From the NCBI GenBank assembly GCA_037043015.1, contig CM073326.1, positions 11,726,345-11,790,344 of the forward strand: a stretch of 64,000 nt of DNA, in the 5' to 3' direction. Source of the DNA: Bryum argenteum (Eukaryota; Streptophyta; Bryopsida; Bryales; Bryaceae). Below the pieces are notes generated by a model. That model saw only the letters and a program-made list of their open reading frames with translations, made no database searches and was not told where the DNA came from. This document shows, one piece after another, positions 1,902-35,507 of this stretch. Each line of letters opens with the position of its first letter. Within the stretch, counting starts at the first letter, position 1. The translations under genes and the position numbers were made by a program.

Positions 1902-2415
1902 CTGCATCAACTGATTATAAGATATTCAAATAACATACTGAATGCGCAAGGCTACAAAGTACAATATAATAAACAATAATTTATCCAAGAGAGCCACCTA
2001 ATTGCGGTAAACCCTCAACGATCCATACATGTTGGAAGTGCCACCATAAACCTGTGATGGTAGGGCAATGCCAAAAAAGGGAACCGGACACAAGGCAAAG
2101 ACCTGTTCTACGAAAAAACCAGCTAGCCCTGGCCGAAATGCTACAAACACGTAATTCGTTATAATGGGAATATATACTGATTTTGGTAATTAGGGAGACT
2201 TCCATTTAGATCGGTTCTGACCTGATTAGTTACCAAATCACCAGGTTTTTACTGATAATGATGAATTTTCTCAATATAAAAGACAATAATAGAAAAGATT
2301 TCATAACGCAAGCTACGAAATATGCTACCCCAAGAGTAAATTTTATTCATATGAAAGCACAAATACAATTTATTGGTGTAATTGTAGACCTCCAACAGGT
2401 AGGCACTAAATTAAT
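1902..2415. other. Upstream of the SET exons, no supported gene
   Basis: This should contain an intron and perhaps further 5' exons of the SET gene. A minus-strand open stretch around 2200-1985 has no recognisable domain and no convincing splice borders, so I do not call it. Confidence 0.3.
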
Positions 2416-3183
2416 CTACCAATTACGACGTGGCGGAGAAGAGGGTTCACCAGAAGTATCATTCTTAGTGAATAGAGGGTCCTCACTACGTGTGTATTTA
2501 GAGAAGGCAGGTTCGTCCATCTCCATAAGCCCACCACTTCTACGACGCTTCGGTGCACGTCTCCGTAATAGACGGTGAGACTCAGTCGAAAATCGTGTTG
2601 GATGAACGCGAGTGTTTGCCCCAAGAGATAAGGAGCAATGAGCCACAGTATTTGGCAAGGAACTATTTAGCTCGAGTCGAGCTAAATAGGCACGGGCGTC
2701 GACGACGGGGTTGCGTGATACAGCTTCACCTTGGGGTGCCGCTGCAACCGAGGTCATCACACCGATTCGATCATTGCCGGTTGCAATAATTGGTTGAATC
2801 TCAATAGGGGGACTGTTTACTACACCATCATCGTCATTATCCATGTCCTCCTTCGTGTAGTCTACAGCCGACGCATCGTCCGGAGCAAAGTAGATTAGTC
2901 GTCCCCGCATTCGTTCTGAGAAAGTTCTGGAGTCGTCACTTGTAATGGAAGCCTCTGAAACCGTCGAAGGACCAATTACAAGATTTGCTTGCAAAGCACA
3001 TGATGCATGTGGAGAGAGCTGACGTCCAACAGCAGCAACCTGGTTCATAAACACAACCATATTAGCAAGTGAGTCCAAGACGCTAAGTGCAATGAAAAAG
3101 GTACACAATATAAGAACGCATTTAATCATGTATGTCGAGGGTGGATTCACCAAACGATCTACATTATATCTGGATCTAAGCAA
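2416..3183 (-). CDS. Hypothetical protein or 5' exons of a longer gene
   Basis: Open frame of 255 codons. Visible features are a hydrophobic segment near residues 19-48 (IKCVLILCTFFIALSVLDSL), an acidic patch (MDNDDDG) and a basic nuclear-localisation-like motif RRRAPKRRRS near residue 210. A potential acceptor (GTCAG) lies inside it near 3030, so the true start may be later and the hydrophobic part may be intronic. The 21-bp palindrome (2666-2686) lies in frame and is read as LARLELN. The gene may supply N-terminal exons to the SET gene downstream on the same strand, or be separate. I do not recognise a family. The right TSD-like repeat of the large MULE begins just 5' of it. Confidence 0.35.
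   Translation of the reverse strand: MLRSRYNVDRLVNPPSTYMIKCVLILCTFFIALSVLDSLANMVVFMNQVAAVGRQLSPHASCALQANLVIGPSTVSEASITSDDSRTFSERMRGRLIYFAPDDASAVDYTKEDMDNDDDGVVNSPPIEIQPIIATGNDRIGVMTSVAAAPQGEAVSRNPVVDARAYLARLELNSSLPNTVAHCSLSLGANTRVHPTRFSTESHRLLRRRAPKRRRSGGLMEMDEPAFSKYTRSEDPLFTKNDTSGEPSSPPRRNW
2666..2686 (+). repeat. Solitary 21-bp palindrome (G centre)
   Basis: Perfect copy: arm TTTAGCTCGA, central G, then the arm's reverse complement. It is the only copy left of 20 kb and lies inside an open reading frame. It is the same core that forms the arrays at 24.1-25.1 and 31.2-31.8 kb. Confidence 0.95.
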
Positions 3184-3188
3184 CCGAT

Positions 3189-3280
3189 AAACATAAGCGG
3201 GGAATGCAGGGGCATGAGCGGAGAGCGGTGAGCAGAGAGCGGTGAGCGGCGAGCGGAGAGCGGAAAGTTGACATTTGTTA
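3189..3280. repeat. Left target duplication and terminal inverted repeat of the large MULE
   Basis: A 10-bp direct repeat AAACATAAGC at 3189-3198 recurs at 17508-17517. Immediately inside it, 3199-3233 matches the reverse complement of 17473-17507 without gaps: 10 of the first 17 positions agree, and the next 18 (GAGCGGAGAGCGGTGAGC) are identical. The inverted repeat then continues as GAGCGG/GAGC iterations to about 3270. A TSD of 9-11 bp is what Mutator-like elements make. Confidence 0.75.
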
Positions 3281-12372: not shown

Positions 12373-12419
12373 CTTTTGATGCGCTAATAGTGTCCATTTA
12401 CCATTAGATTGCATGCACA
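12373..12419 (+). repeat. 47-bp exact direct repeat, copy 2
   Basis: Identical to 11519-11565. It lies just downstream (minus sense) of the donor of the small basic-protein exon, where a second exon would be expected by comparison with MULE copy 2. Confidence 0.9.
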
Positions 12420-12447
12420 AATAAATTTCAATTGGTTTTGCAAATAC

Positions 12448-12825
12448 CGTAGGTTCATCCTCCCGAGAGTTCTCTTCGTCGTAATTCTCAAAATCCAGAC
12501 TGTCAGTCCTTGGACGAGAACCGTTGAAGCCTTGATCTGAGGACTCCGATGACATTAGTGCTCGTTCAAATTCGTCCATCTCGGACACCGCTCGCAAACT
12601 ATTGGATCGCCCCCGATGTCGCAATTTATATGGTGAGTCCGCAGTACATGGAACCCGTCCTCTACAATTCTCCAAGGTCTTCATCTCCGTGTTTGCACTT
12701 GTTTGTTTTCGCATAGCGCTGCGTCGAAGTTGTTTCGCCCCGCTGAACTTTGTGCTTCCCCGTCTTTTCCTTCTTTTCTGACCTACGTCGATACTACTTT
12801 CAACAACTAGTCCTGCCTCCTTCAT
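12448..12825 (-). CDS. Small basic/acidic protein of the MULE (RRGSTKF family), first exon
   Basis: ATG at 12825; exon ends at a donor ACG-GTATTT at 12448 (126 codons). The start is a basic block GQKRRKRRGSTKFSGAKQ; the rest is serine/acid rich (SSESSDQG, DFENYDEENSREDEP). The equivalent gene in MULE copy 2 (51448-52185) aligns from the same ATG: 16 residues to the basic block in both, then KKRRGGTKF. The gene lies head to head with the transposase, sharing about 0.6 kb of promoter region. The second exon present in copy 2 is not found here; the 47-bp repeat and intervening segment sit in its place. A MuDR-mudrB-like accessory role is only analogy. Confidence 0.6.
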
Positions 12826-13422
12826 GTGGACGTTTCCGTCTCTACCTTGTTCTCTAGAGCAAACAAAATCACAAACAATAAGCGCATCAAGAAATTCAAA
12901 AACAAAGATCGTGCAAGAGATTAGGTCCTGGAACTTATTTATATCTTCTTAACTCTAATGTTCCCTGGTTTCATCCGTTCAACAAGGCTAGTCACATGCC
13001 ATGTTGCGCTTCTTATTTTTATCGAAGCCGTCTTTGATTGTACTTTACACACGATCATTAATATTAGACTTGTATTATACTTGGATTAGTTCCCGACTAT
13101 CTCTTACTATAGTGACAACGGATCCCATTTTTGCTTAGATTGGGTATTATTATGGTGGCAAGTCGGTTTGGGTTTTACGGCGCAATTATGAACTCGGTGA
13201 CACTTGAATTTAGCGGACTCAACAAAGTCTTTGCTATTTAAATTCAAACCCCGACACATCCTAATTCTTCTTTGATTAGTAAGTACCAACATGTTATGCA
13301 ACGATTTGTTAACCCCGAAATAATTAGTCATTCTCGCAACACTAACTCTCAAACTCCATGAAAGTACGTCCCCTCTCTTCGTGCATCTTCTCTAGCTTTC
13401 ATTTTCTTGCCTCCAAAGTGCA
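12826..13422. promoter_or_regulatory. Divergent promoter region of the two MULE genes
   Basis: About 0.6 kb between the start codons of the small gene and the transposase. The corresponding region in copy 2 is about 0.55 kb. I place no individual TATA box or start site. Confidence 0.4.
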
Positions 13423-16400: not shown

Positions 16401-17105
16401 ATGCAGTTCACTTTCTGTCCAGACGATATTGAGAGGTGTGTGAAGGGATCTCGCCACAAGTGGATTCAGCCCTTCTCGAACACGATTGATCGTCCACCAA
16501 TCCCTACTATCTGGCCAGTCAAGATTGGTACCAAGCTCACCCTTCCAGAGATCCTTGCTCTTGAGAATGCAGGTTTTCAGCTCCCGCAGAAGGAAATTGT
16601 GCCGCCCAACCGCCTTTTCAACAATGCCCCTCCTCCTCCTCAAGACTACTCAAATGTCCCTATTCCACCCAATCCAGATGTTTTTCCCAAGTCCAGGAAA
16701 TCGAAGAATATCCGTCGAGCTTTGACCGGCCCCTCTCCAAAGCAAAATCTGAATATTGGTTCGGCAGCAGCAATGAAGGCAACCATTCTGAAGATGACGA
16801 TGATACCTCAACCAGGATTTGGCTGCGTGATTCGCTTGCAGTCAGCACCAAGCCCGACGGAGTCCATATACGATGTGGTCATCAGTTCGTTTCCAGATTG
16901 CACCTGTGAAGCATTCAAGGCTACTATGTCAGAGTTTGGTAGAAGAGGGAAGCATTTCAAACCGTGCAAGCATTTATACTACATTTTCTTAACCGTATGT
17001 GGTTTTGATCCTGACGTGAATCTGTTTATCCACGCACCGACCTTCAGCTTCAATGAGGTCAAGTTAGCATTGGAGTCAGGCATTCTAGCACATGCGGTTG
17101 CCTAA
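13423..17105 (+). pseudogene. MULE transposase with SWIM zinc finger, copy 1 (frameshifted)
   Basis: By alignment with copy 2 (52737 onward) the start is ATG 13423 (MASSSEAAS), but the first 300 bp are broken by a TAG and shifts. A long open frame covers 13722-15095, with MEGMDKRYDGHVWTKTMTTN, a Cys-rich region (CKICKEPPTC; RACIHLGEHQHPV) and AWIMFDHVKR. The frame then shifts twice near 15090-15130 into the DDE-type region (NLNHVMARHG, GFMADSAQANWNAVR, RTCLFHWVQSMEKHTK) and breaks again near 15482. A GT-AG intron at 15539-15644 is shared with copy 2. The last exon (15645-17105, intact) starts EKRFTPEEIAEMPSCNLAE and ends with a SWIM finger: DCTCEAF...FKPCKHLYY. MULE transposases cut and paste through an RNase H-like DDE core; this copy cannot encode it in one frame as read. 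Confidence 0.8.
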
Positions 17106-17517
17106 GTACCATTTAATTAGGTATCATTACCTATAGGCCATATGTAGGCATATATTGATACATCATTGTACCTGTATACGCTTTATTCCCATACTAATCA
17201 ATATTTATATATTATAGTAAATATGCAAGTCCACTTATATATTACTATTTTTGTAATTATCAATATTATTCGGCTTGCTCATTGATTTTAAAGTGGTTCA
17301 CGTGTAAATACTTTGTTTCTATGCTTCTGAAATGCTACAATCAATATACAAAATATGTGGTTATAGGTCCAAAAAACCACGGTAATAGGCAGAAATACAT
17401 AATATTCTTGGGAATATTCTGGGAATATTCCAATAAATTCCAAATTTCCGCTCTCCAACCCCTCAAATCACCGCTCACCGCTCTCCGCTCATGCCCTAGC
17501 AACGCTCAAACATAAGC
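17106..17517. repeat. Right subterminal region, inverted repeat and TSD of the large MULE
   Basis: AT-rich 3' region with CCACGGTAATA and GAATATTC-type motifs also seen near 61873-61925 in copy 2. The terminus 17473-17507 (GCTCACCGCTCTCCGCTC, ATGCCCTAGCAACGCTC) is the inverted partner of 3199-3233, followed by the second TSD copy AAACATAAGC at 17508-17517. Confidence 0.75.
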
Positions 17518-17560
17518 TTTTCTAGGGTAAAAACCAGAACAATACCACTGATAAAAGAAT

Positions 17561-18064
17561 TTAAGGCAAATTCTTCCCACTGATTCGGTCCTGATTCCAC
17601 ATATATGGAAGATTACGGCTCAAGAGCATATACAACTCTGAGTCCTTCGATAGTTCATTATGCGTGGGTCTACGATGGCGCATAGTCTCGGCAAAATTTT
17701 CAGGACCGTTCAAATGCACGGAAAGACATATCTCGCCTATCCTCTTCAAGAAGTCGGACTTTGGATCCTCCGGACAGGAATGGTTCCACGGAACAGAGAA
17801 AAGTGTGTTCTTTGTGGGAACCGCAATGCAAGTCTCGGGCTTGGAATCGACAATGAGCAAGTTGTCGTCATTGAAATTGGCACCCTTCCTAGGATACAAA
17901 CCGTCGAGGATATTTTAAGAGGATGGGATTTGTCGTGCGGGGTACTTGGCGAATGCGTAATTCTTCAACAAAAGATTATCGCATTGGTTGGAAGCCAAGA
18001 CAAGTCCGAGCGTCGACTTGGAGAACAAAAAGGAGCAGAGTCCATGGACAACCTTAGGATCTAG
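17561..18064 (-). pseudogene. Unrecognised protein fragment interrupted by a stop
   Basis: Two abutting minus-strand stretches look coding: one with HGLCSFLFSKSTLGLVLASN and AFAKYPARQIPSS then TAA, and directly after it YPRKGANFNDDNLLIVDSKP through PWNHSCPEDPKSDFLKRIG to GKNLP and TAA at 17561. The frame appears continuous apart from the stop near 17922. I do not recognise a family. It lies just outside the MULE right end and downstream of the second ParB-like gene. Confidence 0.3.
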
Positions 18065-18893
18065 GGTACTCCAGGCGTGGACGTGGCAAAACAAATTTAG
18101 TAAGCGAAGGAACCTGTCAACCGGGACGACGGTGAGACGACCCTCCCGGCAACTAAGGTTGGGACGGTGGCGGAAAACACCGGAGGATTATTAGGATCCG
18201 GAAAGGACAGGCACTCTGCAGGCGTTGGGGTAGACACAGAGGCCATCGAACATAGAACCCCGTCCAGCTCCAACATCACATTCAACCACTTGGGCTTGGA
18301 CCGTAAAAGACTGCGGGAGATATGCGTAATGGGTAGCTCGGGTGAGATACGTTGTTTGGGATGTTTGGACGGTCCGCACTGCGATGAGGGAACACGTAAC
18401 AATGGCAAATGGTATTAAAACAAGAGGGTGTGTACCTTGCAAAATCTTTCAAGTATGCAAAGAATCGCCAAAGATTGAGTCTTGAACCGCCACACCCGAG
18501 AGGTAACATGAGGTGGTTGGTGGGGATTTTGAAGCAATCGGACGGAACAAGGTATTGAAGGGGGCACGATAGAAAAGGACGAAGTTTAGGGCCTTGTGAT
18601 GAGAAGGACTTGACTCACTTTGAAGATAAAAAGTGATGTGAAATAAAAGAGTCTCAATTTTATTGAATGATGTTTCAATAAGTACAACGATTATAATTGT
18701 ACTATGTACAAAAAGCGAAACAACATCCAATAATTCGGAGACTACTCGTCGACCTACTCGCCGCCATCAGTGCCGGACTCCTGTCAAACAAGGAGCGCCG
18801 GCTTTAAGATTACTAAATGCGAAAACTTCAAGAGATGAGGGAATAGCAGAGCAAGGAAAGGATAATAACTAACCTCTGGATTTACCGGTGAAG
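18065..18893. other. Between fragments, no supported gene
   Basis: Several short overlapping frames on both strands, none with a domain or splice pattern I can defend. Confidence 0.3.
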
Positions 18894-21800
18894 TTATGGC
18901 CGTCTCAGTAGCAGCCACGGGAGAGTCAAGGGTAGGAACAACCCGGAGCCACGGGGGGAGTGGCTGGGCGTCGGCGCTGCCTCAATCGGGACTTCATTCT
19001 CTCTCGCCGGCTTCTCCAAAATCTCGAGGGGTATGGGGCGGGGTGCGATCTCCGTTTCAGCAACAATAGGAGGCTGTGGAGGCGCGACGATGGCTGGTTG
19101 TGCAGGCGCGACGATGTGAGGATGTGGAGGCGCGACGATGGCTGGTGGACTCGCGTCACAAATGCTGAGGCGAGGTTGATCGGGGTTGATGGAGGCAATG
19201 GGTTTAGGATAACTAGGCAGTTGGGATAAGATATTCCCGAATGATTGAAACATCTGCTCCATCTTGTCTAGTGCCATGCGGGTTTCGGACTGGGAGCTCA
19301 GGAATGTGGACTCCAATCTGTCCACTCGAGCATTCGCAGCTGCAATGTCTGCTAACCTTTGCCTCTCTCTCTCCGCTTCTCTCTCTGCTTCTTCCTTTGC
19401 CTTGCGAGCCTTCTGAGCCTCCTTCTCTTGCCGCTTCTGTGCTCGCTTCTGATCCTTCGTGAGCAAAGGGGCGACAACTTCCACTTTCACTGGTGGTTGT
19501 GAAGGCTCTCCTTCCTCCCTGAGCAGAGGCATGACAGGAAGAAGAGGATCATCCTCAGCCCTCAAAGGCTTTGGAGAACTAGGCTCTTCCGAGAAGTCAT
19601 AAAACCGGACTACTTTGGTATCCTCCGGCTCGTCCTCGGCCTTCCAAACACCTTTCACTAACCATTTGTCATACTTCCCCTTCTCAATCTGCCTCCTGGG
19701 AGGGCTCTGCGGGCCCTGGGGAGAAGGCGCCAAAGTAGTCTCCTCCTGGGATGGATCAGGAGCCACCTCGTCGTCTAAGGTCATGGCCGCGAGATCAGCA
19801 TCATCAGCTTGGTCATCGTCATCCCCGTCGCCATCGCTCGCACCCTCAACATCGTCATTGTCTGAGGAGTTAGAGCTGTCGGATGATGATGCATCCCGCG
19901 GCAGACGCTCTTGCCCAGGTTCTTCATCGTCTTCGCCAAAGATATCCCGGTAGATGCCATCGTTCGAGTTCTTTGAACGAACCTCCCTCCGAAACCCCGG
20001 GGGTGGAACCGTGTGCTGAACTGGAGTCACAGCGGCCCCAATATCGACGACCCCAGGAGACTGCTCGTTTAGCTCGAGTCGAGCTAAATCCTCCTCCGAT
20101 GGAGGACCACGACGCAAGCGCCGGAGGGGGGGGGCTCTCAATGTCCTCGACGACATCGCAGGCCCCATAGTTGGCTTTGAGCGCCCTCCGTGCTTGAGGC
20201 ACAGTAGCGCTTCTTGACCGAGAAGCCTCTCCAGCTCGCGCCTCAGAAGAAGAACGCTTGGTAGATTCGCGCGGAGGGGCGCGTGCTGTACCGCGGCCAT
20301 GAGGCGCAGAAGACCGAGCTCGACCGCTTCCACGACCCTGAGGGGGAGCACGAGCAGTACCACGACCACGAGGGGGAGCACGAGCAGTACTGGACGGAAT
20401 TGCCATCGCAGCCCAGTCGATTGCGGGAGGAGACACCAGAGGAACAGCTGAATCCATGGGGAATTCATCCCCGCCGGAGAAGAAGGACCACCTTCATCTT
20501 CATCCTCGTGCTCAGAAGCGGAAGAGTCGTCGCTTGCATGCTGGGTGGTCTTCTTCTTAGACATCCTCTTCTTTCCCTTCCCTGACCCTTCAGCAGAACG
20601 CTTGGGACCGCGATTAGCTTCTGGATTTACGTATGCTGCGACGTTGATATCGTTGTAGTCCAGATGTTGATAATCCGTCGCAGCATTCGTATAAGCCTCC
20701 TTCTCGGTCTCGCTTATAACAACAAATGTCTCAGCCTGGCACATCTGTTTTAGAAGGAGAGAGAAACTTATAAGAAGACTAAGACGAAATAGCTCGACTC
20801 GAGCTAAAAGGCCATGGACAAAATACATGATGAATAGATTTAGGCATGAGAGTGTTTAGCTCGACTCGAGCTAAACGAGCATGAGATCGTTTAGCTCGAT
20901 TCGAGCTAAACGAGCATGGGATCGTTTAGCTCGAGTCGAGCTAAACGAGCTTGTGGAATTCAAGTTGAAGGAATGGTGCAATGTACTTACAATTCCAGCC
21001 AACATTGGCTTTGTGCCACCCATAATCGATAGAAACTTCCCTCCCGGAGATGAAAACATCTTCAGCACCCGACAGTAGAACTCCAATCGGAGCTCGGTGT
21101 CACTGAGACCAAGGTCGTGTTCTCTGTACGCGCCGGGCTTCGAATAGAGGGGCAACTCAGGAGCGTAGAATACAGAGGGTATCGCATCCAACACACTCTG
21201 AGCATGGCTGCTCTTCTTGACAAGAAAGAGGAGGGGGAGCAAGTGCTTCTCTGAAGCTTTTCCCTCTGCAATGTCGTTGAATCGCTCGTTGCTGGCCGGC
21301 ATGTAGTTGGCTGCCTTGCGAGAGTACTCGTCTTTCAACTTCTTGTCGACGTAAACCATTGCCTGGCAGTTACGGTCGACGTTGGAGGTGATGAACATCC
21401 AAACCTCGAGATTCTTGATGTGAGGATCGGTCACGGTGTCTGCCCACACATCAAGGAATTCTTGAAAGTATGGACTCTCCGTGTCGTCCACTCTACTTCC
21501 ACTCCCCGGGACAGCTCGCAAATCAATCAAGCCTAAATCACACTTGCTAGATTGGTTCCAGGCGTAGTTGTTGTCCCAAATCCCGAATTTGAACTCGGAA
21601 GAGTAAAAGAGCCGCGTGTAAACAATCGGTGCAGGAGGTTCAAACGTCTCTTTGACATCCAGGAACTTCTTGAAGAACTCGGCTGCATATTCCGATATCT
21701 CTGCTGCACTCCTATTCTTCGTCTGCTTTTGACGGTAGAGGGTGAAGAACGAGTCGCCCGGGACGGAGAGAAGCATGGACATAGTCTGACGAGTCAGATT

Positions 21801-24005
21801 GTATTCCACCTTAAACTTCCTCCATTTTTCGACGTCGAACTGCCACTCGGAGTTGAACAAACCGAGCGAGGGCTTGAGGTTGTGCAGTTCCCTCGCGACA
21901 GTGTTCTTCCTCTTCCGATTCTCCACCCACTGCTTTGCACTCATGCACTGGAAGTATTTCTTCGCAGGCTTCCTCACGGCCACCTTGGGGTAGGGCAACG
22001 TTCGATCCGGAGTCTCGTTCAGCAAGTGCTGCGCCAACACCTCGAGGTTCTCCGCGTCCAACTGCCCCATTCCCTTGAAGAACTCCCTGTTCAAGGTGAA
22101 CTTCTTTGAGGCGGTTTCCCAATCTTTCGTCTGATTGAATGGGAGCTCGGTGTCGGGGTCGATCAGCTCTCCAAGACTGTAGTCAGTGATGAACCTCTTC
22201 CACAACTCGTAGACGTCGTCCGGAGATGTGATGATGAGGAGCTCGTTGCGAAGGTCCAACGGTCTGACGATCTTGTCCTTCGCGTTACTGTTGATGCTGA
22301 TGAACCTCTTCACCATAGCAGCCGCGAATGCCTGCACGAAAGCCAAACTGTTAAGAAACAACCTATGCTGTTTTAGCTCGAGTCGAGCTAAAACGACATC
22401 CCCAAACACGTCGATAGAGAATGCAAACAACGCCAACCAGAAAAAGTAAAGACGAGGTAATCTATACCTCATAACGCTTCCGGTTATCTACTTCAACCGG
22501 TGTTTCACGTCGATGCGGCTTCTTCAGTTTTTCAGGGCGGCCATAGTCTTCCCAGACCTTTCTAGCGCCCATGATGTTCGTTGCCCAGGAAGGTATGAAC
22601 GCCCCAAAGATTGTTCGTCTTGTTCGCCATGGCCGACACGTCCAGAATCTTGTTGATGTCGGAATGCCACACAACGTGGGCTTTCCATGTCTGAAGGGCA
22701 AGGACCTTCGATTCATCGATCTTCTCGTCCCGAATCAACTGTTTCGCAGCCTCAACGTGGTGCTGCCCGTCGATAATTCGGAACCGACAAGATTGGACCA
22801 GAACTTCCCAATCCCAAACCTCAGGCTCAGTTTTGATCTTCGACATAATGATGATGGTTTGTCTGGAAGTTACATCAAGAGAATTCATCAAGATGTTCTT
22901 GTAATGCGCGATGCCGGCTGGTTCCAGAGATCGCACGATAAACCTTGGTTCGGAAGGGTCAAGCAGGTCGATCGACACATCAAGGGGATTGTCACGACCG
23001 AAGACATAACACTCTCCTCAAATTTGCCCCAAGTAGTCCTTCAGAGACTTTGCCGCTTCCTCATACTTGATCTCCTTCTCAGAGACAGCCACGTTCATGG
23101 TAGGGTTCATGAACGTAAGAGCGCTGCCGGAGGATTTGCTCCTCTTGGATCCAGAGCTGGAAGAGTTCGGGTTTGGACGCTTGCACTCGAACGCTAGAGA
23201 CTTCCCTCCGAGTGCCTAGACCCGACGGAGCATTCCCGGATGGAGCCCGTGATGAGATTCCCGGGCCGTTTCATTGGAGCCTTGCCTTTCTTCTTTGCAT
23301 TCTCGAAATCACAGAGAGCCTTCCGGATCTGCGCGAGTGTAAGGAATGTACGATCCGCGAAGATTTTCGGGGAAGACGATTGACAATGCAATTTCGTGTC
23401 GATATGATGAAGTTGATTGGGATCGACCTTCCCGACCATAAAGCTCCGGATGAAGTCGTGGGAGAAACGGACTTCATTAGGGGGAAACACAATAGTGAAG
23501 ACGAATCCTTCGACCTCTACTGCTTCGAACTTGATCATGAGGAATTCGTCCTCATATGTAACAAGTTCGATGAAGGCATCAAAACACATGGGCAAAAATG
23601 CCCCGTGAGATCCTGATTGCTGATAAAAGAAGAAGTGCGTCTTGTTCATCGGACGAATCGACCAAGACTTGATAGAATGTGGCTTGGGGGTCCACAACCT
23701 CCCCCATTGCGCGTCCAGAGCTATAGCTGCAAGCGGATCGTCTGCTGATTCGAATACTACTGGTGCAAGGAATCCCTCCAGGGCTTGCATATTGTAAGTG
23801 ACCTGTGGATATCAAATTAACAGAGGGCAAATTAGCTCGAGTCGAGCTAAATGGTCACATTAGATGGAAACATAGATATGAAGTGGACTATTACCTCAGG
23901 AACAGACTCTTGCTGACCAGCATCCAAGTCGACTTCGATTTCAGGCTCGGCAGGTGCATTCGAAGCCATCTGAACGATTCTGGCAGTTTGTTTCGTTCTC
24001 GGCAT
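18894..24005 (-). CDS. Second ParB-like / degenerate methyltransferase-like gene with H3-tail-like N terminus
   Basis: Exon 1 (24005-23895) begins MPRTKQTARIVQMASNAP and ends at a donor GAG-GTAATAG. Exon 2 starts at 23802 after CCACAG. The ParB-like part is 22978-22562: FRIIDGQHHVEAAKQLIRDE, the same GNHR/GQHH position as in the 3.8-8.0 kb gene. Exon 22331-20991 follows, containing CDLGLIDLRAVPGSGSR where DLIICDVPDN stands in that gene, and ending GKFLSIMGGTKPMLAGI, which joins the next exon (from 20744) MCQAETFVVISETEKEAY to give a motif I-like block without its usual acidic/glycine residues. The remainder is P/RG-repeat, acidic (DGDGDDDDQADD) and coiled-coil (KEEAEREAERERQRLAD). Breaks: shift near 23200, TGA near 23020, shift near 22600, two shifts at 20.1-20.5 kb. 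Catalytic residues look lost, so a structural or binding role is more likely, if it is functional at all. Confidence 0.5.
20068..20088 (+). repeat. 21-bp palindrome inside a coding exon
   Basis: Perfect copy (G centre). On the minus strand it reads in frame as DLARLELNE within the open frame of the second ParB-like gene. The unit is 21 bp, a multiple of three, and contains no stop in this frame. Confidence 0.95.
20341..20395. repeat. 27-bp tandem duplication encoding GRGTARAPP-like repeats
   Basis: Two close copies of gggggagcacgagcagtacc with flanking ACGACCACGA in the last exon of the ParB-like gene. They give RG-rich peptide repeats on the minus strand, in the frame shifted relative to the rest of the exon. 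Confidence 0.6.
20788..20945. repeat. Four 21-bp palindromes in an intron, three at 35-bp spacing
   Basis: Copies centred at 20798 (arms shortened), 20865 (C), 20900 (T) and 20935 (G), all between the exon ends at 20991 and 20744. The last three share the 14-bp linker CGAGCATGnGATCG, giving a 35-bp period that differs from the 52-53 bp of the two large arrays. Confidence 0.9.
22372..22392 (+). repeat. 21-bp palindrome in an intron
   Basis: Perfect copy (G centre) inside the 22467-22332 intron of the second ParB-like gene. Confidence 0.95.
23832..23850 (+). repeat. Palindrome core in intron 1
   Basis: 19-bp core (outer T/A pair changed), G centre, in the intron between the H3-like exon 1 and exon 2 of the second ParB-like gene. 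Confidence 0.9.
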
Positions 24006-24114
24006 CACTGCCATACAGCAAACGAGAGACACATGTAAGATTCAGAAGGGCAGTAAAACATCGTCATTAAATTGACGCTCAAATCCGACATGATATCAAT
24101 AGGTGGAGAGATCA

Positions 24115-25085
24115 ATTAGCTTGAGTCGAGCTAAATGACCCAAAACCTACTAGTAAGTCCACTAAGGTCGACATATGCATGGCCCTGGACCTAATAGTAT
24201 GCCCATTTAGCTCGACTCGAGCTAAATGGGCTCACTGCTCTGTGGCAGTTCAAGCCCACTTAGCTCGAGTCGAGCTAAATGGTCACGGCTATGAAACATG
24301 GCCTGGCCCATTTAGCTCGACTCGAGCTAAATGGGCTTGATAAGCAATGAAGCAGATGGCAAATGTTTCATAGCCGTGACCATTTAGCTTGACTCGAGCT
24401 AAATGGGCCCTACGTGCAATGAAGCAGTCAGCCCATTTAGCTCGACTCGAGCTAAATGGTCCTGGCCTTGATTCAGGCCCGGGACCATTTAGCTCGAGTC
24501 GAGCTAAATGGGCTTGACCTGCAATGAAGCGGTCAAGCCCATTTAGCTCGACTCGAGCTAAATGGGCGCGGGCCTGAATTGAGGTCAGGCCCATTTAGCT
24601 CGAGTCGAGCTAAATGGTCTATCTGCTATATTGAAGGTCGAGCCCATTTAGCTCGACTCAAGCTAAATGGGCCTGGCCATTATTCAGGTCCGAGACCATT
24701 TAGCTCGAGTCGAGCTAAATGGGCTTGACCTGCAATGAAGCAGTCTGCCTATTTAGCTCGACTCGAGCTAAATGGTCACGGGCCTGAATCATGGCCAGGC
24801 CCATTTAGCTCGATTCGAGCTAAATGGGCTCGACCTGCAATATAGCAGATAGATTATTTAGCTCGACTCGAGCTAAATGGGCCTGGCCTCAATTCAGGGC
24901 CGCGCCCATTTAGCTCGACTCGAGCTAAATGGTCACGGGCCTGAATCATGGCCAGGCCCATTTAGCTCGAGTCGAGCTAAATGGGCTTGACTGCTTCAGT
25001 GCAGTAAGCCCATTTAGCTCGACTCGAGCTAAATGGTCACGGACATTAGCTGAGGTCAGGTCCATTTAGCTCGAGTCGAGCTAAA
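24115..25085. repeat. Array A: 18 palindromes at 52-53-bp period
   Basis: 21-bp cores (arm TTTAGCTCGA, one centre base, reverse-complement arm) start at 24115, 24206, 24260, 24311, 24383, 24436, 24488, 24542, 24594, 24647, 24699, 24752, 24804, 24857, 24909, 24961, 25013 and 25065. From 24383 on, every step is 52, 53 or 54 bp, about five helical turns. Most cores extend to 27-31-bp palindromes (GCCCA/TGGGC flanks). The centre is C or G (once T), mostly alternating. The 31-33-bp segments between cores fall in two alternating classes. The block 24563-24908 is an inverted repeat centred in the segment 24720-24751. The array lies directly upstream of the second ParB-like gene, whose start is at 24005. 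Confidence 0.95.
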
Positions 25086-25130
25086 TGGGCTTGGTGTTCT
25101 TGGAAATTTAAATGATTAAGTGAAGTTAAA

Positions 25131-25196
25131 TAGGCATCGAGCTAAATGGGCATCGAGCTAAATGGGCATCGAGCTAAATGGGCATCGAGCTAAATG
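25131..25196 (+). repeat. Tandem half-sites: 16-bp GGGCATCGAGCTAAAT x4
   Basis: Four head-to-tail copies of a unit ending in the palindrome half-site TCGAGCTAAA(T), immediately after array A. The left half of the palindrome is absent. Confidence 0.9.
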
Positions 25197-25389
25197 AGCT
25201 GAACGATGAAATTGAGCGCATTTCAGCAGAAAAACACCAATTTCGAAGAGAAGAACACAAATTGGAAGACCCGCATTACTATTCGAGCAACATTCCATAA
25301 CATTATGCCCTGCAATGTACTGAAAATGCTATGAAAATGCCAACCCAATCCAAAACCTAAAAGTGCAGAATCAGCAACTTACAATGAAG

Positions 25390-25900
25390 GTGGACAAAAA
25401 ATGCCCTGATGATGCAACAAAGAGCGCAGAAGAAAAGCGCCGAGAGCGTGCAACGATTGAAGACTGAGGCGCAAAAGCTGAACACGGAGGAGCAAAAGCA
25501 CAACACAGAGGCGAGCAGGAGCACAACACGGCGAGCAGGAGCAGGAGCACAACACGGCGAACGCAGCGATGAGGAAAAGCGCGATGAGGAAAAGCTGAAA
25601 AAGTACGGGAAAAGCGCAATGGAAGCAAGCGGAGGGAGGCGCGGCAGCTGAGAAAGGAGGCGCGGCAGCTGAGAAGGAGGCGCGGCAGCTGAGAAGGAGG
25701 CGCGGCAGCGAGGAAGATGGAGGCGCGAGGAAGAAGGAGCTCTGGCGGGAGGATGGAGGCATGAAGAAGGAGCTCTGGCGGGAGCAATTCAGAAGGGGTT
25801 CGACCGCGCCCGAGCCGCCCTGTCTGCGAGACAGCCCTCCGCCGCCGTTCGGTGCTGCCAGGGCTGCCCGGGCTGCCCGGCCCAAGCCGGTCTGCTTGGC
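25390..25900. repeat. GC-rich low-complexity block
   Basis: Purine-rich on the plus strand, with repeated GAGCAGGAGCACAACACGGC. At 25635-25713 there are four copies of a 20-bp unit GGAGGCGCGGCAGCTGAGAA. Open frames through it on the minus strand (S/A/P/L-rich) are by-products of composition. Confidence 0.7.
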
Positions 25901-28900
25901 CTGCCCGAGCTGCCCGGGTTGGCGGTTTTTTAAATTTTTTTTTTTTTTTTTTTTTTTCGTTTTTTTTAATTCAATATGTTTTGTTAGTTTAACATGTTTT
26001 GTTATTTAAATATGTTTTGTTAGTTTAATATGTTTTTTTTTAATTCGTTTTTGTTACTTAAATATGTTTTGTTAGTTTAATATGTTTCGTTAGTTAAATA
26101 TGTTTTGTAAGTTAAATATGTTTTTGTTAGTTAATTTTTGAAGAAGTACACAAGTTTAATTATTTAGACTTGTCAAAATAGGAGGCGTTTGGAGATGTAT
26201 TTAAAAAAAAATTATTGGAAAGGGGTTTTTATATGTGAAGAAGGTAATAAGGATTCAATAAAATTTATGGAATCACCAAAATAATATCTAAGAAATCGGA
26301 ACTATTTTTCCCGATTTACATTACATTTACTCTATCGACCCGAACTTTGAATAATTTGTAGAAAATATAAAGAATATGAGAAAATATATTTTTGAATCTT
26401 AGGTTAGCTAACCTATAAAATTGATGGTGATATTTAGAAATTTGTGAGAAAGAGGCATCTATATGCTATGAGTTTCTTACAAAAGTTTTAACACATTGGA
26501 ACTTAAAATAATAAGGGAAAAATAAATAAATTGCGGAGCAAAAAGATTTTTGTACTGTGACTAACTATTAATAACCTTATAAAAATTATGGGGTCATAAA
26601 ATAAATCATAGGAGTAACCCATCTATGTGTCATTGTTTACGTGGACCTTTTAGAAATTTGAATAAGGGGGTGAATAAGAGAACTGATGGAAAGAAGTTGA
26701 TTTTAATATTTAAAATAGCTAAATAGGACCATATGAATGTGGTGAAAGTGTAAAAAATATCATAGGGCAAATGGAAGTCTAAAAAATTTCGTGAGAATTC
26801 AATAACTCAGCAGAATTTGAAGTAGGGGGCGAGTGCAACTGTAATTATGCGCAAAAAGGGACGAAGAGTGGTTTTTATAACTTTAATTCATAATTCATGT
26901 CATATGATAACTATGGTGAAAATATAAGGACCACGAGACATTGGAAGTATTTCTTTTTTTTCAATCATTTTTTATTTCATTACTTTAAAATTATATGTTT
27001 ATTTTATTTGTTTTTGTTTAATTTATATGTTTTTGTTTTCACGCATTGAATTAAAATAGTTCATTTCTATGGTTAAAGCTTAAATTAATTCGTAAGAAAT
27101 CAAATTCAAGTGAATAAAGATATTTTTAAATCCTAGAGTAATTATCCTATAAAATGTTAGTTAAATATGTTTAATTGGTGGGAAAGTAAATTAAGATTAA
27201 GAAACATAGTTTAGATCTTAAAAAGAAAACTTATAAATATGATGGTGATATTTATAACTTGTATAAAAAACAAATCTACATGCTACGAGTTTTTTGTAAA
27301 TGTTTTATCACTTTCAAACTATAAATAATAAGTAAAATGTAAATAAATAAAATAGAAGAATAAGATTGTTTTACTTGTATTACTTCATAAGAACCTTAAA
27401 AAATGAAAGTATCCTATAAATAATATATACGGGTAACGATCCTGCATGTTATCATCTACATTAACCTTAAGTTTGTATAAGGATGTGATTATCATTTTTA
27501 AAACACCTAAAAGAAACCATATATTTTTAGTGATCGTGTTAGAAATATTATATGCTAGAAAAAACTAACTGTAGAATGAAAATGAGAATTAAATAATCCG
27601 TCAATATTTAAAGTAAGTAAAAACATCTAATGTAGTGGCAAATAGAGAGTGTAAGTGGTTTTTATATTTTGATTGCTTTACTTCTTTCCGCTCCGCAATT
27701 ACTTCATCCATTGGATCAATTTTGTCTGAAAATAGCGCAACCAATTCTCTCTGCGTGAAGGAAATAATTGAAGAATGCACAGCTACTGTGATGTGAGCAG
27801 CGCCGTCATTCTTAGATGTCTTCCGCAGCAAGCTTTTTTTGGGGTCAATCTCATTTTAACAGAATGAGTCTCATTTTGATTGAAATTCAGATATGCATAG
27901 TCGATATCCTATACGTAAGCATTGTTTCTTAAAGTTTCAACAATTAGGATCGTATTATTTATATTTTCATTTGTGTCGATCAAAATTCACGAGGAAACAT
28001 TAAGTAACTACATTGCCTTTTATACCGATTGCTTACATTTCTTGAAAAAAATATGGGGAACGATACTTAACTTCTTTTGAATCTCAATTTTGCATACATA
28101 AGTTCGCATAGGCAAACCTAAGTTTCTTAAGATAGTAACATACAAAATTACAAAAAAGATATTTTTGATTCTAAATATTTAATTTTCATTAGTAAAACGT
28201 TAACTGATTTAACCTACATTAAGTAATTTTGTAGGCAATAAGCATATTGTTAGCACGGAATAAAATAAAGTATTTACGCACAATTAAATATGCATTTAAT
28301 TTATGTATGACGAATGCCCATGATTATTAATCTACATTTCCCCGTTAGGTAAGGAAATATCCTATTGGAACAAAACATTATTAATATTCACATTCAACTA
28401 TTAGAACTGATAGACATTATATATTATTAAAAAATTTAAAATACAGTAGATTAGTCTATTGATATAATAACTATTATTTAAGTATAAATTAATGTAGTAA
28501 TATAGTGTATAATAGCATATTCAATAATATTGAATATACCTTATTATAATAATAAATATATTTTCATATAGTACAATATAGTAAAACAAAACATATTAGT
28601 ATATTAAACAAAAATTAATCTAAACTCCTTAATCTTTAATAAAAAATTAATACTTAAGTAAAGAATATCTAAATAAAAAAGTTATGAAGATTTCACATAA
28701 ATATTCTCGCTGTGGTAAACATGACACATGTAAACAAATAACGAAATTTAAAATTTAATGCACAACCAACACATTTGATTCTCATAGCTTAATATACAAA
28801 TCTCCTTAAAATGAATGTGCCATTTGCAACCATTTTACAGTAGCAACTATCAAATTGTTTCAATGAAAAAACCAAGCGCGGAGCTAAATCAAGTGAATCA

Positions 28901-30400
28901 ATCCAAAAATGATCGACTGGAAAAATACAGAGGGTGCACCAAATTGAACGGAAGAAGAGCTTCGAAGCGATGCAAACAAGCGCAAGAAAGAGAATGAGCC
29001 CGAGGATTAGCTAAAGTAGCATGAGCGAGGAGTAGGAGCAGAAGAAAACGGCGGAATAGCGAAAGGACATGTGCGCGGGGAAAGTAGAGTGCGCCACGAG
29101 ATAGAATGCGTTGCAAGAGTCCTTAAATAGAGTATAGAATTTAAGCTAACGAGTTTAGGAATTAAGGTTTTAGTTATTGTGTTGAAGGTTTAGGATTAAA
29201 GGTTAATTATTTTTGAACTTAAAGAGGAAGGATTGAAAAGTAAACATAGAAGTTAGATATCAACTTTATAAAAGAAAGCGTAAATGCAGATACATTATAA
29301 ATTTTTGAAGATAACTTTAGAATACTATAGTATATAAAGCATCCTAGCATAAGAATTGAAGTAAAATGAATATTATTATGTTTGAATATCACACATAAAA
29401 TACTAAACTTTTAAAAAACATATAGTCACTCAATGTTAACAAGACTGAATTTTAAAGCAATAAAATTATACTTTAAATATATTATACTTTAAGTATTATA
29501 CTTTAAGTAATATACTTAAAATATCATATTGGAAATAACACACTTGAAAAAATACGTAATAAACTTATGATTTCTCAACTTAATCCTTTGTCTAAATACT
29601 TATATGATATTATATCACATAAATATCTTGAATATTACGTTTATAATGGCCATTTGTAGAATATCACATTCAACTTAATTGAATATCATACGTAATACAC
29701 CACACCTAATTAAATAGAAACTAATCTTATAGGATCACATTTAAATAATTTGAATATAATATTTACTATAATTGTTTCAACGTGTAAAGTATTTATCTTT
29801 TAATATTACACGTAATTTGGTAAATACAAATCTTACAATTATACTTCACAACACCTGTCGATTTTAATCAATTAAGCATAACGCTAGGCTTAAAGACTAT
29901 AAAGTTGTTAAGAGTCACCTTAAGATCATGATTATGAAAAAGCGAATCATGAAAAACTATTTTTAATTTCACGTAATTGGCTTGCAATCATAATACATGC
30001 TCCATGCTTGGAGTTCCAATAAAATAGAAGAGCTGTTTTCACTAAAGTGCATTTCATTAATTCATACTCTTTTGCAAAGTTTAGAATAGAAACTAGACTT
30101 GATTTGGAGGAAAACCTAAGTGATATTATTCAAAACGGACCTCAGATGAAGAAGATATGGCTATTCAAAGTTATGCTTTCTATTCAAAATGTCGTTTTTT
30201 AACATTCGGCGCATTAAGAGAATATTTTGTTCATTTGAGTTTGGGTTATCCATTTTCCTCGCGAATCCGGTTTTTTTTATTACAATTATGTAATTTCTAT
30301 TTTTAGAAGTATTACAGATTCCTCAGCGACTTAACTTCAAATGATTTTACTGCCCTAAGATGTCGTCGTTCCTCCCGAATTTTTGTTAATTATGTTTTCG
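25901..30400. other. AT-rich gene-free block, 4.5 kb
   Basis: Begins with a poly-T tract (about 25925-25972) and repeated TATGTTTTGTTAGTTTAA phrases to about 26130, then very AT-rich sequence with no supported ORF, RNA gene or element border. A small richer patch at 28.85-29.1 kb has no recognisable product. It separates the two divergent gene/palindrome-array pairs. Confidence 0.6.
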
Positions 30401-30404
30401 TTCC

Positions 30405-30899
30405 TTGCGAAGTTCCCCGTTCCTTGTGAAGCTCCCCGTTCCCCCGAAGTTCCCAACGACGTCGCTTTTACTCTATACCGTTACTGGCCGTATTTGGCGC
30501 CCTTTCTATTTTGAGTTCGTGATCTTGTTTGGCGCCATTTCTCTTCCCGCTTGCTCTGGCTCTCTCCTCATTTGCGCACTAAGCGCTTTCCGCTCCTTTC
30601 CTGCTCCGCTACTGTGCGCTTTCCGCTCCTTCGCTCCTGCTCCGCTGCTGTGCTCTTTCCGCTCCTCTCGTGCTCCGCTCCTGTTGCCCTTCGCCTCACC
30701 TCCGCACCTTCGCATCTCCGCCCTTCGTCTCTGTACACTACGTTTTGCCTAAACTCCCTATTACCATTAGTGCTTCCGGTTTTGCAAATTTTGATTAGGG
30801 TTTGGGACTCTTAGTAGCTCTGGAGTTGAAGCGCGTGCTGCTTTTGAGGATGCCCAGGGCCTTCGTTGAAATACCGCAGCTGTCAAGCAAGGCGTGAGG
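30405..30899 (+). promoter_or_regulatory. Pyrimidine-rich upstream region and 5' UTR exon of the DUF7869-type gene
   Basis: CGCTCC/TTCCGCTCC iterations (30570-30710), then a leader ending GGCGTGAGG and a consensus donor GTAAGT at 30900. The matching acceptor GGCATTCAG is at 31880, seven bases before the start codon, so a 981-bp 5' UTR intron is predicted. Transcription start not located. Confidence 0.45.
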
Positions 30900-31181
30900 G
30901 TAAGTACGATCTATATCCTCAATGTCAATGTATAACAAGAGATTGTTGTTGATTGGTCATATCTTGCGTTCATCGTGGTGCATTCCTGATGGCAATGTGG
31001 ATATCGTCGGTATAGTTGTGCACGGAAATCGAGGCAAAGATACTGTTTTACTTGTGCACAGTTCCCAAGAACGATTCTTAGTATTTGCTGTGCACGAATA
31101 TCGAGGCAGTTTCATATAACATATGCATGATATATGGACAAGCTCATGAAGTCCTGTACTTTAGAATTCATCCGAAGACCA

Positions 31182-31783
31182 TTTAGCTCGAGTCGAGCTA
31201 AATGGGCTTAATCTGCTACAGGGCAGTAAGCCCATTTAGCTCGAGTCGAGCTAAGTGGGCTTGTATTTAATCAGAGCAATACGCCCATTTAGCTCGAGTC
31301 GAGCTAAGTGGGCATACTGCCTTGTAGCAGATCAAGCCCATTTAGCTCGACTCGAGCTAAGTGGGCATACTGCCTTGTAACAGATCAAGCCCATTTAGCT
31401 CGACTCGAGCTAAATGGGCGTATTGCTCTGATTGAATACAAGCCCATTTAGCTCGAGTCGAGCTAAATGGGCCGGACCATGTTTAAGGTCCGTGACCATT
31501 TAGCTCGACTCGAGCTAAATGGTCTTGCACTGAATCAGAGCTGTACGCCCATTTAGCTCGAGTCGAGCTAAATGGGCTTAAGCTACAACGGAGTGGTATG
31601 CCCATTTAGCTCGACTCGAGCTAAATGGTCATCCAGCTTTTACTGCGTCGTGGTGAGAGTTGAACAGTTATCTTGAAGACCAGTTAGCTCGAGTCGAGCT
31701 AAGTGGTCATTAAGAAAACTGTTCATCACGCTTACCTCGAAGCTGTTGAAGCTTGATGACTATTTAGCTCGACTCGAGCTAAA
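31182..31783. repeat. Array B: 11 palindromes at 52-53-bp period inside a 5' UTR intron
   Basis: Cores start at 31182, 31235, 31288, 31341, 31394, 31447, 31499, 31552, 31605, 31683 and 31763; the first eight steps are 53,53,53,53,53,52,53,53 bp. Centre bases read G,G,G,C,C,G,C,G,C,G,C. Segment 31256-31287 is the reverse complement of 31415-31446 (31 of 32), centred exactly on the core 31341-31361. The two inner segments (31309-31340, 31362-31393) are direct repeats of each other (31 of 32) rather than inverted, and 31203-31234 is an inverted copy of them (29 of 32). Confidence 0.95.
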
Positions 31784-31886
31784 TGGTCATATACTCTCAA
31801 TGGTAGTAAGCATTTCTGACTGCACGTAGATTTAGCTACCAGTGATTTCTCATGATTGTTTATTTATTGCTGGCATTCAGGTTATC

Positions 31887-34831
31887 ATGGAATTGAGTGA
31901 ATCCGATGGCGACGGTGATTTTCAGCGTCTTTTTTCGGAGGTACTGGACTTACTTAATTTGCAGAATACAATATTGTTCTGAGTTCATCTATTCGTACTA
32001 ATTCGTCTATGTTTGTGGTCTTTTAGGACTTGGAAGGTCCTTCTGAGCTTGTTCTTCCGGACCACTTAAAAGATTGCCCCGGACTTCCCAGAAGTAAATG
32101 GGTTACGAAATTTGTGACACTTCTCAACGATAGTGGGGACGTTGTTGGTGAAGGCATTTGTCAGACTTTGGACGCTGAAAGAATGCTTGAGAGTAATGAC
32201 GAGCCCATATGTGAAGATCAAGTAGTTGTGCAGATCGTGAAGTGCTTGAATTTCGACTTCGTACCTGCTGAGACCATTTATGGGACCAGGAGCTGGAAGC
32301 TCAGCCATGCTATGCACGAGGGTTGGTCACTACTTGATCATTTACGAGTTGATCAATTCAACGTCGCTGTTTATGCCCGCGATCATCCAAAGAAGAAGAG
32401 GGTGCGACCGTATGATTTGGGAGAACGGAACCAACGATTTGTGAGGACCAAGAGGGAGGAGGAGCTCTTGACGTTAGATTTAGTCAACTTGGTTGCAAGC
32501 AAGATTTGCTGCAGCAAGAACTGTTGCCAACCTTTCCCTCGTGAGAAAATTATGGCTCTCCGAAAGCAGATGTACGAGGCGTCGGGTTTTAAATTTAAAT
32601 CACATTTCAAGATCGATGTTCATAATCGTTTTCATCAGGCACCGGACGGCACGATGATGGTAACCACTGAAGGCATTGATGTTTGCGCGCGTGCATGGCA
32701 ACATATTAGTGGAGTTCCGATTTCCACATTTTACAGGCGGAAGGCAGAAGCTGCAGCTGGACTACGTGCTCGGCACCATGGGAATGTTGGTCTGAAGAAA
32801 CCACGATTGCATGTAAAGCAAGCTGTTGCTACTTTGAAGACATTCATTGACAATGCTGCTGATCATATGCCTCACCGGTCGAAGATGTTGACATCTGGTG
32901 AGAAGGTTGTCTCTCGGTCCTTGCCATCGTCCTTCAGATGGAAGGATGCTATACCAGGGATCAATGACATCAATGAGAGGTTGGGCTTGAAGTCTATTTC
33001 TCAGAGCACACTGAGCAGGATTAGGAGGTCAAAATTTTCAGAGTATTCAAAGAAGGCGCCTGGGGACAATTTTGCTCGTTGCTCAACTTGTGACAGGATG
33101 GAGACAATGATCAAGTCTATGGTACCTGATTCATGTGAAGAGACTATGTGGATCAAGAAGCTAGACGAGCATTTGCATCATCAAGAAACGCATCGTGAGT
33201 ATTATTATTCAAATCGTTTTCTTTCTATTCAGCGGCCGAGAGATGTCCTTTGTATAATACATGACAAAATGGATCATGCGAAGACTGCTTGCCCTGTATT
33301 TTCACATAAAACAAAGGCAAATGATGCATTGATGAAGCTTCCAATTGCCGTGACTGGCATGATTGCTCACGGGCATAGCGATGTCCGGTATGCTCATTAT
33401 GGGCTCGATATTTATCCAAGTGATTGCAATCACACTGTTGGATCAATATTAAAGCTTTTACGAGATCTAGAAGGTGTTCCGATCTCGTATTCGAAGTCAT
33501 TATTCGCAAATTCGGGGTCGCTGCCTTTATTTGAAGCTGTATTGTTTGGAAAAGAAGGGTGTTTAAACTCTCTTCTACCTGAAAGTGAAGTTTCTGGGGT
33601 GGCGGACCCTCTACCTCCTGTCTTGCATGTGCAATTGGACAACGCAGCTTCTGACAACAAGAATAGATTTATGTTTTGCTTTTGGTCTCTTCTGGTACAC
33701 ATGGGTGTGTTCCGTGAAGTATATGTCAATTTCTTGTTAGTTGGACATACCCACGAAGACATTGACGCCCTCTTTAGACGTTGGAGCATGAATCTCAAAG
33801 AGAATGACTTTCTCACACTTCCTCAGTTGATGAAGTCATTCATGGACGCGGAGTCTTTGCCCGTCATTCCTCATTTGATAGAGGAAATACCTGACTTCAA
33901 GGGTTATATCAAAGACTACATTGGTTCCAGAGATGAAATTTTAGTTGGGCATTCGGAGGGTCAGCAGTTCAAGTTTTACAAGCATGACAATGGATGGCCC
34001 ATGATGCAGTATAAGATGTTATGCACAGACAAGGAGTGGTTACCTTCTACTAATGGAGGTATAAAATTGTGGAAAGAGGACCGAAGTACGGGGAAACCAA
34101 TGTTACCTACAGGTGACATGAAACCTTTGGCGCCCATTCCCATGAAGAACCATGATGACATTGTAAAAGGCATTGGAGGGTTTATTAAGATGTGGGAGAC
34201 TTCAAGTGTGGAGGACATATCTGGGGAATTTGGTCGGCGTCATGAATTTGTTATTTGCTATTGGCGAGCTGTGAAGCTTGCGTTGGTTGAGCCTATAGAA
34301 GTGTCTTCATTTTTGAAGAACGGGTGTTGGCCTATAACTCGAGTACCTGCGACATGAGAATTCTTGAATACTGGCGAATTGCGAGAGGAATATGGGCGTG
34401 ATCCGCACTTTATCGGACGGTTGTGTGATAGACCAAGGGAGTCGTTTCGGGTTGGTCGAGATGTTTTTGCTGGATATTTTGTAGCTCTACGTCCAGCTGA
34501 TGGGGATGCTCGTCCTTTCTGGATTGCTAGGGCTTTAACTGATTTCGATGTTGATCACAACTATCCAGGCTGTATTCAAATGCAATATTTTCAACCCGCA
34601 TCGAAAAATAGTGTTGTTCAGGAAACCTATGCTGGTTGGGATACGAAGAAGACATTCAAATGGAAAGTTGAAGACACTCACATTCCGGAATGGCTTCATG
34701 CTAATGCTATTTTTACGTCATGGAAATCAAGTGCAAAACTTGGCTCTCGGCGTCCCATTATTTCATTATCGGAGCGTCAAATTGACATCATCAAACAAAG
34801 TATTGAGCGGTTCGACGGTGGAGAGGAGTAG
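31887..34831 (+). CDS. DUF7869-type protein, possibly transposase-derived; one in-frame TGA
   Basis: Exon 1 is 31887-31940 (MELSESDGDGDFQRLFSE), donor GTACTG, acceptor TTTTAG, exon 2 from 32027 (DLEGPSELVLPDHLK). The frame stays open to TGA 34355-34357, then continues in the same frame to TAG 34831 (EFLNTGELREEYGRDPHF onward); the stop probably replaces a sense codon. Total about 950 residues. Motifs: a Cys-rich stretch CCSKNCCQ, a YRRKAEAAAG region, and near the C-terminal third LDNAASDNKNRFMF followed by VGHTHEDIDALFRRW, the signature of the DUF7869 family (name from memory), whose D...D/H pattern suggests an RNase H-like integrase fold. Similar proteins occur as multicopy families in early land plants and invertebrates. 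Function unproven. The 5' UTR intron carries array B. Confidence 0.7.
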
Positions 34832-35507
34832 CCTGACATCCCTACTTTATTTGGGCATGCCAATTTAGCTCTAGTCGAGCTAAATGACCTCAGTGCAATT
34901 TGAGCTGTCAATTTATCGTGTCGTGGCTTTTTGCCAATAGATTCATCTTAGAAATGCACGTACTAGAAGTCCTACCTCTCATCCGTAGTTAAGTATTGGT
35001 ATAGTTGTTATGCCTTAAAGTTAACAATTCAAGTGTTTGTAAATTTTCGGACTTGGTCGTCGATTCCCAGTTTAATTGAGTTTATCGTTTTATTGTGCTC
35101 TTTTAGCTTATTGCTGTCAGGATGCATTTTGCTTTTGCTATTTTCATCATCTTTTGTATTCAGTTTAGCTCTACCACATGCGCGTTTAGCTCTACATCAC
35201 GCTCGTTTTGCTCTAAAACACGCACGTTTAGCTCGATATATATGCTGGAATTTAGGTCGATTGGTTTTTGAGAGTTTGAATATTCCCATTATAACGAATT
35301 ACGTGTTTACACAGGGTCCCAACTCCTGTTACATGCGGCTCTTGTTAGTCCCGAATAAATAAAAAGTACTAAAACTAAAAACTAAACCTTCTGTACTTCC
35401 CTAGTACTTCAGTGTATCTTCACCTTGTACGTCGCTTCAAATTTGCTGGTGGAGCATGCGCATCACCTGTCAAGATAAGACACAATTTCTTCATCTTCTA
35501 GGTGAGG
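34832..35507. repeat. Degenerate palindrome and half-sites downstream of the DUF7869-type gene
   Basis: A core with one arm mismatch is at 34865-34885, 34 bp after the stop. At 35164-35240 four half-site-like phrases (TTTAGCTCTA, TTTAGCTCTA, TTTTGCTCTA, TTTAGCTCGA) alternate with CACGCNCG-type linkers at about 22 bp. No gene otherwise. Confidence 0.7.

Follow-up and report, generated by a model that had tools for sequence, protein, structure and literature searches.

The question raised by this locus of Bryum argenteum is what keeps near-identical 21-bp palindromes in a regular array at positions 24115-25085 of the window, by which we mean the whole 64-kb stretch of DNA that was analysed. In this array, here called array A, the core TTTAGCTCGA-N-TCGAGCTAAA occurs 18 times when up to two mismatches are allowed; 14 of these copies are exact, and each core is built as 10+1+10 around a centre base that is mostly G or C. 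The extent, the count and the palindromic architecture given by the first-pass annotation are all correct. Its description of uniform 52-53-bp steps holds for 14 of the 17 steps and fails for three: the steps are, in order, 91, 53, 52 and 72 bp and thereafter 52-54 bp, with one step of 54 bp and with those of 91 and 72 bp out of register. Altogether the window holds 38 cores at up to five mismatches, all inside one mobile element, against 1, 0 and 1 in three mononucleotide shuffles of the window. Beyond the array annotated at first, the same element carries array B (31182-31783), a group at a 35-bp step (20855-20945) and solo cores.

A search of the core across the whole assembly (258.8 Mb), as had been proposed with the annotation, returned 5,878 exact occurrences, and the same pattern read backwards returned none. 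The inner 15 bp of the core occurs 6,985 times genome-wide, and half-site pairs at a distance of 52-53 bp occur 870 times. Other loci of the element family carry the array as well (each fetched locus has between 13 and 24 cores, counting one in an intron), which argues against an assembly artefact.

BLAST comparison of the window with three other array loci demonstrated one colinear repeated element over 2146-3198 and 17508-35307, an 18.9-kb unit in two pieces that are split by a 14.3-kb insertion without cores. The main BLAST blocks are 93-99% identical, and among the matches listed a further copy beside one locus is 89-90% identical. The element ends are 28-bp perfect inverted repeats (TIRs) with the start AACACG, and 4-bp target duplications are present in all four copies that have both ends (TACA, ACTT, GATG and TTTT). 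Genome-wide, the TIR (26 nt, at most two mismatches) has 474 plus 466 occurrences. On the basis of the 28-bp TIRs and the 4-bp target duplication, we conclude that the element is a TIR DNA transposon of about 18.9 kb. Two further families carry the same core (family 2, L026-L029; family 3, L025), and the family of the window is referred to as family 1. The gene layout is divergent, with the DUF7869 frame running rightward and a set of frames leftward (strand given where it applies):

2146..2173 (+): left TIR, 28 bp, preceded by the target duplication TACA
35280..35307 (-): right TIR, 28 bp, followed by TACA
2146..3198: left element piece, before the nested insertion (BLAST)
17508..35307: right element piece (BLAST)
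32027..34354 (+): 776-aa ORF with DUF7869, candidate transposase (PF25273, E 2.6e-44)
23895..24014 (-): predicted first exon of the left gene (open frame and family-1 rows)
22565..23017 (-): left-gene segment common to three families, with the motif II-GQH--A-K (cross-family comparison)
20988..22259 (-): left-gene segment conserved in three families, without a Pfam match (cross-family comparison)
17780..18321 (-): left-gene segment 25-34% identical to the family-2 NIF-like phosphatase (homology)

Pfam detected DUF7869, plus NIF in family 2, and no MULE- or VANC-type domain in the element frames scanned. A weak helix-turn-helix match (Xre-like, E 0.074) makes the DUF7869 protein itself a possible binder of the core. 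Of the solved-structure searches, two returned no match and two others only matches at E 0.37 and above, and a single-sequence structure model of the DUF7869 region has a pLDDT of 32. No relatives of the DUF7869 and left-gene proteins were confirmed in viral contigs, and the word DUF7869 was not found in the literature searched.

Several features of the element lie outside the question of the core. In the left gene, the predicted first exon begins with MAVMPRTKQTARIVQM, a sequence that we take to resemble closely the histone H3 tail ARTKQTAR. All 14 rows compared, from nine family-1 loci, retain RTKQTAR amid variable adjoining residues; the search used for family 1 did not recover it in families 2 and 3. 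The family-2 left gene carries a NIF-like (CTD) phosphatase domain (L029:8016-8822; PF03031, E 9.1e-13). Invariant in five sequences of the segment 22565-23017 (-) is II-GQH--A-K, by which motif the segment presumably resembles ParB/DGQHR domains; Pfam gave no match for this segment and the PDB weak matches only. Between arrays A and B, the stretch 26001-30000 is AT-rich (about 26% GC), lacks long open frames and is part of the element. The nested 14.3-kb insertion (3199-17507) has a junction repeat of roughly 8-10 bp and ends of GCGGAGAGCGG type. Its ORFs at 13698-17105 resemble ORFs at 52665-56356 and may encode a MULE-like transposase (SWIM matches only at E 0.1).

The cores and related repeats are placed within the element as follows, with introns predicted from open frames and GT..AG signals rather than from transcripts:

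24115..25085: array A upstream of the left genes, with 18 cores and steps of 52-54 bp in 15 of 17 cases
31182..31783: array B upstream of the DUF7869 ORF, with 11 cores at steps of 52-53 and then 78 and 80 bp
20788..20945: four cores in predicted intron 20990-20745, three at a 35-bp step and one at 67
22372..22392: solo core in a predicted intron at about 22467-22332
23831..23851: solo core with one mismatch, inside intron 1 (predicted, 23894-23803)
20068..20088: solo core within an open frame that may or may not be coding and lacks conservation across families
2666..2686: solo core some 0.5 kb inside the left end
34864..34884: solo core, one mismatch, about 0.4 kb from the right end
25127..25196: 16-bp tandem repeat with half-sites ATCGAGCTAAATGGGC
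35163..35234: subterminal 21-bp tandem repeat with half-sites TTTAGCTC

Each of the three predicted left-gene introns thus holds at least one core. The other two families repeat this placement with other steps and other arms. Family 2 has acag[core]ctgt at a 45-46-bp step upstream of genes and at 32-33 bp at intron positions, and family 3 has ag[core]ct at 38-bp and irregular 50-60-bp steps, with a centre that is often A or T. Their proteins are about 25-50% identical to those of the window (55% in one 22-residue piece) and nearer to each other, at 31-75% identity by segment; the comparison of DUF7869 proteins covers families 1 and 2 only. All three families have cores upstream of the left gene, families 1 and 2 also have them upstream of the DUF7869 gene, and across families cores flank, on both sides, the segment homologous to 20988-22259. 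When 127 cores were set against the coding segments defined by cross-family tblastn (window element and L025-L029), 33 were expected inside and 3 were found. These three derive from the window query reading through palindromes and are outside by the family-3 query, a judgement made post hoc; if none of the 23 core clusters lies inside coding segments, this has a probability of about 0.001 by chance. The information content is 1.3-2.0 bits at core positions, up to 1.9 in the short family-specific arms and 0-0.6 farther out, in units that were picked by core match, which favours the core.

The regular steps had been read at first as helical phasing, with either cooperative binding by a dimeric protein or a cruciform role. 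A step of 52.5 bp corresponds to 5.0 turns at 10.5 bp per turn, but the same core also stands at steps of 35, 38, 46 and 78-80 bp (3.3, 3.6, 4.4 and 7.5 turns), measured in fetched loci of which some are near-identical copies. Because of these other steps helical phase is not supported as a general principle and is a family trait at most. The structural role, in which the palindromes would act as RNA hairpins or DNA cruciforms, agrees with the strong folding of array A pieces as single strands relative to shuffles (z -8.3 and -12.9) and with the partial self-complementarity of the spacers (0.53 and 0.47 of positions for families 1 and 2 versus 0.26 when shuffled, and 0.33 versus 0.27 for family 3). 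We nonetheless regard it as highly improbable, as the letters are kept rather than the pairing. In a census of 381 cores of fetched loci, many of them from related copies, 251 cores are exact and 170 mismatches were counted, 60 at the outermost base and 42 as CpG transitions. Among the 28 cores with two mismatches, 4 alter paired positions and none restores pairing, a comparison of low power that lends no covariation support. The share of CpG transitions, together with unit numbers that differ between loci, is what arrays of selfish or neutral tandem repeats hitch-hiking in the transposon would show; this explanation is barely credible given the same core despite diverged proteins and spacers, at corresponding noncoding places and in different steps. 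Conservation of letters rather than pairing favours a protein site with twofold symmetry. Of the two roles first suggested, binding by a dimeric protein is the one that fits best, and we consider it very probable, judging from the sequence comparisons, that the core is the recognition site of such a protein.

What the bound protein would do is a separate matter, and here two alternatives need weighing. The core could be a cis site for transposition, at which the DUF7869 protein, or else an accessory protein, would bind and assemble the transposition complex, on the model of TnpA on Spm subterminal repeats. The two solo cores near the element ends and the half-sites nearer the right end would suit this role, as would the weak helix-turn-helix match of the DUF7869 protein, and so would an older MITE of about 160 bp whose majority sequence consists of a TIR, an exact core at the centre and a TIR. 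In 20 copies of this MITE (every fifth of 100 listed among 115 anchors, chosen regardless of core) the core is exact in 6, and identity to the majority is 96% at core positions versus 88-91% beside the core. An intact core occurs in the same MITE context at 73 further places, and 15 fetched intact-core places, selected for the core, have MITE sequence in all cases and TIR-like ends in most. Against a transposition site, the majority of cores lie in the interior of the element, in predicted introns and upstream of genes, several kilobases away from either end, and although 8 of 10 TIR-adjacent stretches contain a core, 2 have none within about 0.9 kb. A young 151-bp MITE with the TIRs of the element and exact 4-bp duplications in 18 of 20 sampled copies also stands against it. 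Its majority sequence contains two core-like palindromes that are broken (4 and 2 mismatches), and this broken-core stretch has at least 72 exact copies genome-wide; at least 40 copies at 96-100% identity were found among 918 first-look candidates. From these exact copies it follows that this MITE spread recently without an intact core, which weakens a role in transposition and suggests that an intact core would not be strictly needed for movement. We judge a transposition site unlikely. In the other alternative, a host transcription factor or chromatin protein would bind the core, which the element would exploit as promoter and enhancer while encoding no binder of its own. One core common to all families is expected of a conserved host reader, and sites in promoters and introns agree with it, but the 38 cores are confined to the element within the 64-kb window, and a site as long as 21 bp, with outer arms that differ in Physcomitrella, fits a co-evolving binder better; a host binder is distinctly unlikely.

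The distribution of these sequences among contigs is uneven. The 44-Mb contig C1 (17% of the assembly) has 19 of 40 array loci among those listed, as counted by eye, 0 of the 73 intact-core MITE places, 6 of 72 broken-core MITE copies and 6 of the 100 listed old-MITE anchors, and may be a chromosome of unusual make-up. A 151-bp MITE copy on this contig (C1:24448644-24448794; L037:445-595) has the duplication CTAA and is nested in a related element copy.

Comparison with known systems excludes several identities. The layout had been likened to a CRISPR, a reading that does not fit, as the spacers are mutually related and in part self-complementary and the array lies inside a TIR transposon; Pfam scans of the element frames found no cas genes. 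An iteron field or replication origin was set aside because the arrays are in a repeated TIR element upstream of genes, and a viral or prokaryotic source of the core was rejected with 0 matches in viral contigs and three single sites in the prokaryote collection. TnpA of En/Spm (CACTA) has repeated binding sites with regulatory and transposition roles, to which the putative sites for an element protein described here are similar in being repeated; those of TnpA are subterminal 12-bp motifs, whereas the present ones are mostly internal 21-bp palindromes. En/Spm TIRs start with CACTA and the duplication is 3 bp, and membership is rejected for an element whose TIR begins AACACG and whose duplication is 4 bp. 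Sola1 and Sola2 DNA transposons also make a 4-bp target duplication.

The nearest known parallel is found in the VANDAL transposons of Arabidopsis. VANC21 binds YAGTATTAY motifs, which are tandemly repeated in introns of VANB21 and VANC21 as well as upstream of VANA21, and VANC target repeats are gained and lost between VANDAL copies (PMC5735166, PMC10398659). On that description, both systems have a short motif in tandem in noncoding regions of a DNA transposon, namely introns and the sequence upstream of genes, and in both the unit number shifts between copies. They differ in that the VANC motif has nine bases in one orientation whereas the core is a 21-bp palindrome, in that the motifs diverge between VANDAL families whereas three families here have the same core, and in that VANDALs are MULEs whereas this is a DUF7869 element with a 4-bp target duplication and no VANC-like protein in the frames scanned. 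On present evidence, and by analogy, the repeats of the element may work like the VANC system; we do not claim membership in it. The statement that no described family has this core was nearly right, the exception being two tandem repeats of Physcomitrella patens, Pp01_31 and Pp08_44 (31 and 44 bp), which contain the inner palindrome AGCTCGAGTCGAGCT and are described as satellites in a report whose main text does not use the word palindrome (PMC6302065). Within the literature searched, the inner 15 bp was found in these repeats only. Their outer arms are ATC.. as opposed to TTT.. here, and the Physcomitrella arm type CAGCTCGANTCGAGCTG has 2 occurrences in this genome.

We propose that array A would be the promoter-proximal array of the 18.9-kb TIR DNA transposon, and that its 21-bp palindrome is probably recognized by a dimeric, sequence-specific DNA-binding protein, most likely element-encoded. 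The putative binder would occupy the noncoding control regions of the element, that is both divergent promoters and the introns, and would switch the element on or keep it on against host silencing, in a mode of action like that of the VANC target repeats. For the core serving activation or anti-silencing by an element-encoded protein we give a probability of about 0.5. The presence of the same core at matching noncoding places in distant relatives of the element points to a self-recognition binding site. The proposal is favoured by the constancy of the core beside such diverged proteins, by the near absence of cores from coding segments, by core information above that of the flanks with variable unit number and no pair compensation, and by the spread of the broken-core MITE, the Physcomitrella inner 15 bp with different arms and the VANC-like placement. 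Against it, the exact core at the centre of the older MITE could mean a role in mobility, the DUF7869 protein, with its weak helix-turn-helix match, could itself be the binder, VANC motifs diverge while this core does not, and the core at 20068 lies in an open frame.

We regard the core as a genuine cis-element, and an uncommon one, of a large transposon in a plant. A broader proposal, which we hold tentatively and with more doubt than belief, is that a group of giant TIR transposons in this plant may carry a self-recognition code: one 21-bp palindrome, constant while the proteins diverged and partly shared with Physcomitrella, would be amplified anew in every family, at the two promoters and within introns, to provide landing sites for an anti-silencing protein that the element encodes, and the H3-tail-like N-terminus (family 1) and the CTD-type phosphatase domain of the same element would be part of a counter-silencing kit. 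If true, sequence-specific self-recognition by transposons, known from Arabidopsis VANDALs, would also exist in another kind of element, and a motif that is conserved rather than diverging would put the arms-race account of motif divergence to the test. The defined 21-bp site, together with its natural broken versions in MITEs, offers a handle for finding the binder.
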